From NCBI RefSeq assembly GCF_001998865.1, contig NZ_CP019607.1, forward strand, positions 2,294,001 through 2,358,000: a stretch of DNA of 64,000 nucleotides. Direction: 5' to 3'. This DNA comes from Tessaracoccus flavescens (GTDB lineage: Bacteria > Actinomycetota > Actinomycetes > Propionibacteriales > Propionibacteriaceae). A program made the position numbers and the translations under genes. This document shows positions 22,898-26,259 of this stretch, piece by piece. Positions within the stretch are counted from its first letter, which is position 1, and every line of letters begins with the position of its first letter. The notes beneath the pieces were generated by a model. That model saw only the letters and a list, made by a program, of their open reading frames with translations, searched no databases and had not been told where the DNA came from.

Positions 22898-23569
22898 ATG
22901 GACGAAACCGCCCCTCAGGTCATGGAGGCCCAGTTCGACGAACTCATCCGCACGATGCTGCGGATGCAGCCTCGCCACCGCGAGGTCAGCGTGCGCGATC
23001 CCGAGGGCCAGGTCGAGGCGACCTGCGGCCCCGACGGTCGACTTGCGAAGGTCACCGTCGAACCGCGTTGGCAGGACAAGATCGAGCCGGGCGACCTGTC
23101 GACCGTGCTGCTGACCACGATCGCGGAGGCGCAGTTAGAGGCGTCCGGTCTCAACGACGATGACCGTCCCGAGCCGACCGAGGAGGAGGTGGCGGCCAAG
23201 CGCGAGGAGATGATGCGCATGGGCGAGCAGGCCCTCGAGGCGCCGTCCAGCGATGCGACCCTCCAGGCGAAGGTCGACAACCTGCCAAACCTCTTCGACC
23301 AGCTCGACCTGGCGCTGGCCCAGCTCAACGACTCCCTGACGAACCTCGAGGTGCCGATCGCCGTCGAGGAGGCTGAGCAGCTGAACCTCAAGCCGGCAGG
23401 CGGGGTCGAGGTCCGCTCCGAGAACTCCATGGTCACGGTGACGGTCAACCACGGCTATGTGGTCGACGTCGCCATCCATCAGAGTTGGCTGCCCGGGAAG
23501 TCCGGTCACGTGCTCACCGAGTGCTTCGACCAGATCATCGATCAGCTCAACGAACCCCTGAACAGCTGA
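22898..23569 (+). CDS. Tandem YbaB/EbfC-like protein, first gene of WXG cassette
   Basis: The 223-residue product appears to hold two YbaB-like halves. Residues about 22-90 read EVSVRDPEGQVEATCGPDGR with a following amphipathic helix, and residues about 165-223 read VTVTVNHGYVVDVAIHQSW and a helix. Between them lies an acidic helical linker. YbaB/EbfC proteins are nucleoid-associated DNA binders; shorter relatives often sit next to WXG100 genes in actinobacteria. GGAGG lies 5 bases before ATG 22898. The gene is followed 10 bases later by the large repeat-rich gene, so they form an operon. Confidence 0.65.
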   Translation: MDETAPQVMEAQFDELIRTMLRMQPRHREVSVRDPEGQVEATCGPDGRLAKVTVEPRWQDKIEPGDLSTVLLTTIAEAQLEASGLNDDDRPEPTEEEVAAKREEMMRMGEQALEAPSSDATLQAKVDNLPNLFDQLDLALAQLNDSLTNLEVPIAVEEAEQLNLKPAGGVEVRSENSMVTVTVNHGYVVDVAIHQSWLPGKSGHVLTECFDQIIDQLNEPLNS

Positions 23570-23579
23570 GGAGAGTTAC

Positions 23580-25307
23580 ATGTCCGAGACGACATCTTCA
23601 TCCGGAGGCTCCTTCGAGTGGCCCGCGCAGGGCGACCACATCGGTGCCATGCGCGGAGCGTCGCAGTCGACGACGCCCCAGACCACGACGAATGCCACCC
23701 CCGGTGATGCCACGGCAGACGCCCCGGCGGAGGAGTACGTGATCGGCGAGGCCGTCACAGCGGTGCCCGAGGACGCCATCGAGATCACCGCGGACTCGAC
23801 GGTCGCCGACGAGGCGGTCGCGGTCGCGCCCGACGGAACCGTGGTCGACACCAGCGGCGACGCAACGCTCATCTCGACCTCCGACGGCGTCGAGGTCAAG
23901 ATCGGCGTCGACGGCGAGATCACCATCGACGCCGACTTCACCGACAACGACTCCGCCGACATCTCGACGCTCGCTGCGGGCGGTTCCTTCGAGACCGAGT
24001 CCGGAACGATCATCACCCGCAACGAGGACGGCTCGATCACCATCGAGCAGCCAAACGGGCAGACCATGACGGTGCACGAGGACGGAACGGTCGACGTCGA
24101 CCTGCCTTCCGAATACGAAGCCATGGGCGGAGGCGCAGGGGCGGGAGCCGGTGACGGCGGGACCCCGACCGAAGAGCCCCCGGCAGGCGACGAGGAGGCG
24201 GGAGCGCCCGAGGAGGCCGGCGGCGATCTCGGTGGCGGCGGCTCCGGCGGCGGGGGAGACCTCGGTGGCGGTGGCGGAGGCGACCTGGGTGGCGGCGGCT
24301 CCGGCGGTGGCGGCTCAGACCTCGGCGGCCTCGGCGGCGGCGCCGGATCGGGCGGCATCGGGTCGGGCGGAGGGGTCGACGGCCCCGGCGTCAGCGGACT
24401 GCCGACCGGCACCGGAGACACCGACGTCTACGACCCGCAGCAGGTCGGCGGCCCCCAACTGCCCGACAACTTCATCACGGAGGTCCCACGCAGGCCCGAC
24501 GGCGGCCTCGGATCCGAGGCTCCCCAGAACGTGTCAGGCACCGGCTCCGCAGGCATCGGAAGCACCGGCCCGTCGGTTTCGGGCTCCGTGCCCACCACGC
24601 CCGGCCCTTCCGGCAACGACGATGGCCTTGTCTGGAACCCGGTCGACACCGACGGTGACGGGACCCCCGACTACCGCGACACCGATTCCGACAACGACGG
24701 CATCCCCGACGCGGTCGAGGCCGTGCCGAGCCCCGGTGTCGGCACAGACGGCCCCACAGGCCCGGACATCGACGGACCCGGCTCGGGGACTCCTACTCAG
24801 CCGCCGGGCGGCACCCCGACCGAGCACCCGGGCACGCCGCCGGGCGGCACCCCGACCGAGCCCCCGGGCACGCCGCCGGGCGGCACCCCGACCGAGCCCC
24901 CGGGCACGCCGCCGGGCACTCCGCCGGGAACGCCGCCGGGAACGCCGCCGGGAACGCCTCCGGATAACAGGCCGACTGACTGCCCGCCTCCCCCGAGCGA
25001 GAACGGCGACGACTACACCGTCGACATCTCCGACCTCCGCGACGACGCCAGGTACGTCGAGAGCCTGGTCCCCTCGGCCACCGAGCTGACGAACTGCTGG
25101 GAGGCCGTGTCCTCCCTCGTCCAGCACTGGGGCCTGTGGACGCCGGTCTCCGGCACCTACAGGAAGAGCTGCACGCAGTTCGGCACCCTCTATGAGGGGG
25201 CCGCGAAGGAGCTCCAGGCCGTCAGTCAGGCCCTGAACGAGACCGCTGAGCGCTACGAGGAGATGGAAGCCAGCGGCGTCCGTCTCGCCGGCCAGATCAA
25301 CAAGTAA
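23580..25307 (+). CDS. Repeat-rich protein with WXG-like C-terminal domain
   Basis: The 575-residue acidic protein has no signal peptide. In order: a disordered N-terminus (1-55), a beta-repeat region (about 75-180), a glycine-rich tract (about 181-275, GGGGSGGGGD-like), a calcium-binding thrombospondin type 3-like stretch (DTDGDGTPDYRDTDSDNDG, residue about 356), a proline/threonine repeat (about 408-460) and a C-terminal helical hairpin of about 100 residues (475-575) with W-rich core (CWEAVSSLVQHWGLW), resembling a WXG100/ESX substrate fold. RBS GGAGAG precedes ATG. I infer export by a type VII-like route, with the helical end as signal; no secretion ATPase gene is in the window. Confidence 0.6.
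   Translation: MSETTSSSGGSFEWPAQGDHIGAMRGASQSTTPQTTTNATPGDATADAPAEEYVIGEAVTAVPEDAIEITADSTVADEAVAVAPDGTVVDTSGDATLISTSDGVEVKIGVDGEITIDADFTDNDSADISTLAAGGSFETESGTIITRNEDGSITIEQPNGQTMTVHEDGTVDVDLPSEYEAMGGGAGAGAGDGGTPTEEPPAGDEEAGAPEEAGGDLGGGGSGGGGDLGGGGGGDLGGGGSGGGGSDLGGLGGGAGSGGIGSGGGVDGPGVSGLPTGTGDTDVYDPQQVGGPQLPDNFITEVPRRPDGGLGSEAPQNVSGTGSAGIGSTGPSVSGSVPTTPGPSGNDDGLVWNPVDTDGDGTPDYRDTDSDNDGIPDAVEAVPSPGVGTDGPTGPDIDGPGSGTPTQPPGGTPTEHPGTPPGGTPTEPPGTPPGGTPTEPPGTPPGTPPGTPPGTPPGTPPDNRPTDCPPPPSENGDDYTVDISDLRDDARYVESLVPSATELTNCWEAVSSLVQHWGLWTPVSGTYRKSCTQFGTLYEGAAKELQAVSQALNETAERYEEMEASGVRLAGQINK
24801..24956 (+). repeat. Coding tandem repeat, 36-bp then 12-bp units
   Basis: Three 36-base units encode PPGGTPTE(H/P)PGT and are followed by four 12-base units encoding PPGT. 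The units are nearly identical in DNA sequence, so the tract is prone to slippage. Confidence 0.9.
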
Positions 25308-25320
25308 GGAAGACAAGATC

Positions 25321-26130
25321 ATGATGATGCTGGTAGACGGTGGCGGGGGCGGCGGTGGCGCCTGCTCCTTCACGCTCGACGTGCAGTGGATCCTCGACGC
25401 GATCGACAAGGTCAAGAACTTCGTCCGCAAGATCGAGAACGCGATGCGCAACGTGGCCAACAAGGCGGCCCGCTTCGTCGAGAAGCTGAGCGGCATCGCC
25501 GGCCTGTTCTGTTGGGTTCCCGGCGTGGGCAAGTTCCTGAAGAAGGCGATCCGCAAGGCGGCCGAGATCATCGACCGGACGATCCAGATCGTCTCGCGCG
25601 GCCTGCAGGCCCAGCTGGAGATCCTGAAGCACCTGCTCGCCCCCTGGGAGGTGCGTTCCGCAGGTAAGTCGATCGCGGACGAGCTGGCCCCCAAGTGCGA
25701 CGAGTTCGCGCTGCGGTACCAGAAGGGCCACTTCAAGGCGGTCGAGACCTGGACCGGGGCGGCTTCCGAGGCCTTCTTCAAGGCGATCGACAAGCAGCAG
25801 GAGGCGGCCGAGTCCACCGCTGAGGGCGCGAAGAAGTTCGGCGACGCCGTCCATCAGATGGGCGCTAAGGGCGTCGAGATCACGGTGAACTTCATCACGC
25901 AGTACATCACCGCTGCTGTGGGGATCATCCAGGCGGCGCTGACCATGGCGGCCATCCCGGTCGGCACCGCGATCGGGGCGGCGGAGATCATCGCCCTGAT
26001 CGGCGCGATCCTCACCTACATCATGGTGTGGGTCAACGCGATGCTCGGCATGATCACCTCGATGGTCGATATGGAGAGCGCCGCCTACCAGGCGGTCCCC
26101 GGCGGCCAGTGGCCGAAGGCGGTCGTCTGA
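25321..26130 (+). CDS. WXG-motif protein with hydrophobic C-terminal domain
   Basis: The 269-residue product opens with a glycine run, then a lysine/arginine-rich helical region (residues 20-110), and a second helical region with [17 protein letters not shown], a W-x-G turn between two helices (W near residue 143) as in WXG100 proteins. Residues about 195-245 are strongly hydrophobic (two helices, [20 protein letters not shown]), so the protein may be membrane-inserted or pore-like. No signal peptide. It follows the repeat-rich gene by 13 bases with RBS AAGGAAG, and a terminator follows. A role as a type VII-type effector or structural partner is inference. Confidence 0.6.
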
Positions 26131-26232: not shown

Positions 26233-26259
26233 TTAGCACTCTCGTATGCTGAGTGCTAC
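26233..26259 (+). promoter_or_regulatory. CIRCE element, downstream copy
   Basis: TTAGCACTC-N9-GAGTGCTAC differs from consensus only in the last base. A TATGCT -10-like hexamer lies in its spacer (26245-26250), so HrcA binding would cover the promoter of groEL. Confidence 0.9.

Follow-up and report, generated by a model that had tools for sequence, protein, structure and literature searches.

Among described loci, the closest to the one analysed here are the mycobacterial groups espA-espC-espD and espE/espF/espH, in which a substrate pair of a type VII secretion system (T7SS) and a YbaB-like helper are encoded together. EspC carries the motif YxxxD and EspA and EspE carry WxG, and the EspC family comprises stand-alone proteins of about 100 residues that fold as a helical hairpin and have YxxxD/E near the hairpin end. 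In the available parts of PMC6107294 and PMC6319747, the YbaB-like proteins EspD and EspH stabilise ESX-1 substrate pairs, with EspH binding EspE, EspL is proposed to be a chaperone, and espACD lies >260 kb away from its machine. The window examined in this study, a stretch of 64,000 nucleotides of the 3.65 Mb genome of Tessaracoccus flavescens (C1:2294001-2358000), contains three consecutive genes, called the trio here, that have this espACD-type layout: a YbaB-like helper, a hairpin with YxxxD/E and a WxG partner, encoded one after another in an operon-like row. Trios of this kind are in themselves already known from ESX-1. It is likely that it constitutes a trans-encoded substrate cassette of the ESX-4-type system (T7SSa, the a type of T7SS) of the same genome, and that genes 2 and 3 are exported together by means of a signal in the tail of gene 2. 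The observations behind this reading are the gene content and motifs of the trio, a predicted hairpin in gene 2, ESX-4-type genes elsewhere in the genome, the co-occurrence of the two, and the recurrence of the gene 2 architecture in other genomes.

An earlier reading of this DNA from its letters alone (the sequence-only reading) had described the three genes with spacings of 10 bases (genes 1 and 2) and 13 bases (genes 2 and 3), and these coordinates and frames were confirmed (Table 1); the frames are kept in relatives from nine other genomes of the genus. No signal peptides were seen in the trio proteins by eye, without a predictor. The tandem YbaB-like character claimed for gene 1 also held, as the Pfam scan matched it to PF02575 (YbaB/EbfC) at 31.8 bits, over the cut-off of 25.5, with two stretches at a lax E <= 10 (the gene 1 alignment, A3, has 11 rows). 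By analogy with EspD and EspH, gene 1 is probably a dedicated chaperone of the pair.

The last 100 residues of gene 2 had been taken for a WXG hairpin. The hairpin is predicted by AlphaFold2 as two helices (8-41 and 49-98) joined by a turn, with a mean predicted local distance difference test score (pLDDT) of 80.4, but the WxG part of the claim did not stand: this end of the protein has a conserved turn WGLW and no WxG, and its signature is YxxxE, which sits inside the second helix and whose Y and E are invariant in 10/10 aligned gene 2 rows (window row counted). Judged by its motifs, the tail appears to be the EspC/CFP-10-like side of a pair whose WxG side is gene 3. It has the two helices and the YxxxE towards the end that mark the EspC family; PF10824 (EspC) matches the window hairpin at 14.9 bits (E 0.038), under the gathering cut-off of 23.5 bits, and is found at E <= 1 in 5 of the 10 aligned rows, and further weak profile matches are to ESAT-6-like protein 7, EsxB and EsxA. 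By size it falls outside that family, being the tail of a 575-residue protein, with ~475 residues before it and 0 after. The hairpin is proposed to be a T7SS targeting domain.

The rest of gene 2 matches no Pfam family over cut-off. From its start the protein is Thr/Ala/Ser-rich, followed by a conserved part, a Gly-rich region, the repeat DTDGDGTPDYRDTDSDNDGIPD, a Pro/Gly/Thr-rich region and the 100-residue C-terminal domain. Nine relatives are 45-73% identical over matched stretches that include residues ~50-180, and TSP_3 matches the window protein below cut-off (E 0.07). That gene 2 serves outside the cell as a calcium-binding protein of the surface or wall is guessed from its TSP3-like repeats and its composition.

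Gene 3 carries the WXG motif and hydrophobic end that had been attributed to it. The W and G of its WTG are invariant in 11/11 aligned rows (window row counted), and a C-terminal hydrophobic stretch is present in 10/11 (the exception is L039). The motif is placed in a loop between helices 69-132 and 147-211 by a low-confidence model (mean pLDDT 57.7); structure prediction, which the sequence-only reading had named as a check, thus gave a helical hairpin for gene 2, and for gene 3 only in this weak model. PF06013 (WXG100) matches gene 3 at 15.5 bits, under its cut-off of 27.3 and in a protein of 269 residues against about 100, and is found in 10/11 rows at E <= 1 (best 0.0022); PF18879 (EspA_EspE) matches at 11.8 bits (E 0.35), under its cut-off of 27 bits, and in 7/11 rows at E <= 1 (best 0.01). 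Gene 3 is proposed to be the co-secreted partner of gene 2.

Table 1. Features of the trio, in window positions
Feature	Position	Strand	Description
Gene 1	22898-23569	+	223 residues, tandem YbaB/EbfC-like
Gene 2	23580-25307	+	575 residues, repeat-rich, C-terminal EspC-like hairpin
Gene 2 residues ~50-180	23727-24119	+	Conserved, presumably beta-rich (beta content by eye)
Gene 2 residues 181-340	24120-24599	+	Gly-rich, 39% Gly
Gene 2 residues 356-378	24645-24713	+	Thrombospondin-type-3-like, calcium-binding-like repeat DTDGDGTPDYRDTDSDNDGIPD
Gene 2 residues 386-470	24735-24989	+	Pro/Gly/Thr-rich
Gene 2 residues 476-575	25005-25304	+	EspC/CFP-10-like hairpin, proposed T7SS targeting domain (AlphaFold2, weak profile matches)
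YEEME (YxxxE)	25254-25268	+	Near hairpin end
Gene 3	25321-26130	+	269 residues, helical WxG protein
WTG, gene 3 residues 144-146	25750-25758	+	W and G invariant
Gene 3 residues 195-248	25903-26064	+	Hydrophobic stretches (Kyte-Doolittle scan)

Several differences from described substrates should be noted. Unlike in espACD and espEFH, the EspC-like hairpin is here the tail of a 575-residue protein, the YbaB protein is tandem and comes first in the order, and the machine is ESX-4-type. EsxA/EsxB WXG100 pairs share the helical hairpin fold but are stand-alone and about 100 residues long. The T7SSa substrates PE/PPE and EspB resemble the trio in that they combine a WxG-bearing helical bundle with a signal of the C-terminal type; however, their targeting domain is N-terminal according to the available part of PMC11217815, whereas the one proposed for gene 2 is C-terminal, so that the order in gene 2 is the reverse of PE/PPE, EspB and LXG substrates. 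A reverse domain arrangement is described for TslA, a lipase of the b type of T7SS (T7SSb) in S. aureus (PMC10730906, available in part). As in TslA, the helical targeting domain is C-terminal and small helical partners are encoded next door, with the targeting in our case a prediction. The accessible text on TslA also describes features absent here, namely the T7SSb, an LXG-like domain, a phospholipase passenger and two partners with no clear YxxxD/E; the trio instead has T7SSa, an EspC-like hairpin with YxxxE and a YbaB helper. For T7SSa, a C-terminal hairpin behind a long passenger was stated to be unknown in 2024, in the part of PMC11217815 that was available. In a paper on PPE50, the term reverse domain occurs among the references only. 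No paper treating Tessaracoccus and type VII secretion together was found in open-access PubMed Central, which omits most subscription papers and preprints.

Secretion machinery and its co-occurrence with the cassettes

The trio had been described as lacking its own machinery. This holds for the window, in which no FtsK/SpoIIIE-type (EccC) match was found, but not for the genome, where such matches occur at 5 places (E <= 0.01) and a full ESX-4-type set lies ~1 Mb from the trio (eccB, eccC, eccD, eccE, a subtilase and a WXG100 pair, all over Pfam cut-off). The EccC candidate has 1356 residues and three FtsK/SpoIIIE stretches and is adjoined by an EccD match (with YukD domain), EccE, EccB and the subtilase; the two tandem WXG100 proteins are at C1:1325550-1326143. 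The set is provisionally labelled ESX-4-type on account of the genes it contains and of the statement in PMC11217815 that the T7SS of Actinomycetota other than mycobacteria is ESX-4. A group II intron reverse transcriptase/maturase (RVT_1, GIIM) lies ~2 kb from the subtilase end of this cluster (C1:1311154-1312665, minus strand; L009:5155-6666).

The genes of the trio occur together, as the sequence-only reading had expected. Genes 1 and 2 are each matched in the same 10 of 39 genomes of the genus, and gene 3 in those same 10 and, weakly, in genome G035; one scan gave five loci, in records of three Tessaracoccus and two Propionibacteriaceae. The trio is found just upstream of groEL in all 10 genomes, its matches being 187-447 bases away from those of groEL. 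EccD is matched strongly (E 8e-58 or better) in 17 of the 39 genomes, including all 10 with the trio, and no gene 1 or gene 2 match was found in the other 22. The association has p = 3e-5 over the 39 genomes, uncorrected. When a groEL tree (38 genomes) is taken into account, trio and ESX-4 agree in 3.5 of 7 independent pairs and disagree in none, which is not significant. In the window, TTAGCACTC-N9-GAGTGCTAC is found upstream of groEL at 26233-26259 and belongs to groEL, not to the trio; it differs by one base from the controlling inverted repeat of chaperone expression (CIRCE) element.

For the hairpin itself, matches away from the ESX-4 cluster are found in 15/17 ESX-4 genomes and in 0/20 others on the groEL tree. 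Here 6.6 of 7 independent pairs agree and 0 disagree (median p 0.016). The two ESX-4 genomes scored as lacking the hairpin, G033 and G011, have their only match within ~7 kb of EccD; G020 is nearly a copy of G033 and was counted as having it on a weak match. If G020 is rescored as absent, 6.3 pairs agree, and if G024 is rescored too, 5.9 (median p 0.031). G035 is a counterexample, with hairpin cassettes and no EccD match; its assembly (560 contigs) is 85% complete, and it is missing from the tree because no groEL match was found in it. The claimed relation to type VII secretion is supported by the predicted hairpin and the co-occurrence with ESX-4; matches to profiles of Esx/PE chains add weak support.

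One clade of nine genomes, with good support in the tree, has weak EccD matches and no hairpin match at E <= 1e-4; a T7SS-like gene set seen by eye at one of its loci is possibly of another T7SS type. The cassettes thus appear to track the ESX-4-type machine specifically and not T7SS in general. The nine genomes of this clade, which have neither the ESX-4-type EccD nor the cassettes, are G002, G004, G005, G006, G010, G018, G023, G034 and G037; one locus of the clade (L249, in G005) encodes, by eye, an EccC-sized protein of 1360 residues, two frames with EccD matches and a WXG100-like protein.

Hairpins at the tails of long proteins

The sequence-only reading had remarked that a hairpin at the C-terminus is unlike ordinary WXG100 proteins, and this arrangement proved to be recurrent. 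A profile of 16 hairpin domains (A6) matched 36 of 197 genomes of the family at E <= 1e-4, and 1 of 7388 reversed frames matched it below 1e-3. Sixty neighbourhoods were taken, nearly all chosen for a match in a long frame and hence not a census. When the window and the loci found before were added, the distinct matches numbered 84: 66 long proteins (at least 100 residues before the hairpin and at most 40 after), 10 stand-alone hairpins and 8 others. All 66 long proteins have [YF]xxx[DE]; the last copy lies 11-25 residues before the C-terminus in 61 of them and 37-51 residues before it in the other 5. A YbaB-profile frame lies directly upstream of 48/66, and a frame directly downstream of 65/66, with WxG in 59 and a gene 3 profile match in 43 (which was preferred as the downstream neighbour where a choice existed). 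Both neighbours are present in 45/66, and an overlap of 1 or 4 bases is the commonest spacing to the next frame. With matches restricted to E < 1e-10, the neighbours are found in 28 and 32 of 33; the background rates are 62/7388 frames for the YbaB profile and 284/885 frames of 240-400 residues for WxG. Distances between gene 2 hairpins and between gene 3 proteins are correlated over 59 cassettes (Spearman 0.43, 0/2000 permutations), which speaks for inheritance as units, not for contact.

The N-terminal parts of the 66 proteins form clusters of 36, 9, 5, 3 and 3 with 10 singletons, and are mostly low-complexity. A Pfam scan of 64 of the 66 (E <= 0.01) found TSP_3 in 3, TSP3_bac in 1, Tcp10_C in 4 and no enzymatic family. 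The middle protein of genome G270 scores over the EspC cut-off at its C-terminal end (24.2 against 23.5 bits). Its first 132 residues match no Pfam family at E <= 1; there are matches to phage endolysin families (best 1.4e-22), a better one to a portion of a tail tape-measure family (1.3e-53), and matches to the solved chains 8b2h (SH3b domain-containing protein, 1.6e-13) and 8b2e (muramidase, 4.6e-11). The full muramidase-like fusion is found in 1/8 genomes of its genus, G270. One cluster of long hairpin proteins (L177, L179, L181, L184, L201, all in G270) has WxPxTGxxYxPxTGRW-like repeats by eye, and OCRE matches were seen in 4/64 members of A8 (best 4.2e-6).

Hairpins also occur free. G177 has two cassettes flanking groEL, one with a long gene 2 and one with a stand-alone hairpin of 99 residues; the free form is found in G039 and G044, and YbaB, stand-alone hairpin and gene-3-like frames occur together in two other families (L093, L094, L097, L109). 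The simplest reading is that the free hairpin is older and the fusion derived. A broader view, which we put forward tentatively, is that Propionibacteriaceae have a modular reverse-orientation T7SSa platform, with several cassettes per genome (tandem YbaB chaperone, exchangeable N-terminal passenger ahead of an EspC-like hairpin that bears the secretion signal, WxG partner) served by one ESX-4-type machine in trans. The passengers would be surface repeat proteins and, in one case, a muramidase-like domain.

Proposed export and its alternatives

For the pairing, chaperoning, secretion and extracellular function of the trio we infer an order of events because of the precedent of YbaB-like EspD and EspH with ESX-1 substrate pairs. 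Gene 1 would bind and stabilise the gene 2/gene 3 pair in the cytosol, where the EspC-like hairpin of gene 2 and the WxG hairpin of gene 3 would form a four-helix bundle. The WxG of gene 3 and the YxxxE of gene 2 would then make up a composite signal for recognition by EccC. Both proteins would be exported together, and the N-terminal part of gene 2 would travel as a passenger ahead of the hairpin. Outside, this part would work in the cell wall or on the cell surface, and gene 3 may insert in or bind the membrane. If export is true, a targeting rule (hairpin and YxxxE, at either protein end) would be common to T7SSa and T7SSb, and the role of YbaB-like proteins as helpers of substrates would not be confined to ESX-1. 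The hairpin cassettes are ready test cases and candidate substrates for the ESX-4-type system.

On another reading, the trio is an espACD-like cassette of the ordinary sort: the long stretch ahead of the gene 2 hairpin would be a mere disordered spacer or filament-forming extension, and the term reverse domain an overstatement. The mostly low-complexity, by eye Gly/Pro-rich N-terminal regions, the lack of enzymatic families in the Pfam scan and the restriction of the full-length muramidase-like fusion to G270 itself would all suit this. We consider this unlikely, although with an appreciable chance of being right, as it does not sit well with the conservation ahead of the Gly-rich region, the recurring TSP3-like repeats, or the joining of unrelated N-terminal clusters to the same kind of hairpin.

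It is improbable that gene 2 stays in the cytosol and serves gene 3 as an adaptor or chaperone, in the manner of the Pro-rich EspK for EspB. EspK is described as an EspB chaperone in the available part of PMC11217815, which counts in favor of such a role; however, the invariant YxxxE, the calcium-binding-like repeats, which suit an exported protein, and the presence of a candidate chaperone (YbaB) in the trio already all count against it. That the trio has no secretion role at all, with gene 1 a nucleoid protein, as YbaB proteins are known to bind DNA (PMC6107294, in the part available), genes 2 and 3 internal, and the position beside groEL due to chance, is very improbable given the co-distribution of hairpin cassettes and ESX-4 over independent pairs, the YxxxE/WxG pair, and further cassettes away from groEL in the same genome.

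Further hairpin loci of the same genome

A second trio of the T. flavescens genome (G000) is at C1:9858-12903 on the minus strand (L091:4359-7404). It encodes a tandem YbaB-like protein of 260 residues, a 502-residue repeat protein with DTDGDGVPD and a C-terminal hairpin ending in FxxxE, and a WDG protein of 252 residues, and lies directly upstream of a response regulator, a histidine kinase and a lipoprotein that by eye resemble MtrA/MtrB and LpqB. At C1:1578681-1582288 (minus strand; L151), a 289-residue protein with a C-terminal hairpin is followed by a Pro-rich protein of up to 914 residues, part of which matches the gene 3 profile; upstream of this pair, no frame matching the YbaB profile was found. 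A fourth pair, at C1:~890400-890900 (L003), consists of a stand-alone hairpin of 111 residues ending in YxxxE and then a 276-residue frame with WQG and Trp-rich hydrophobic stretches.

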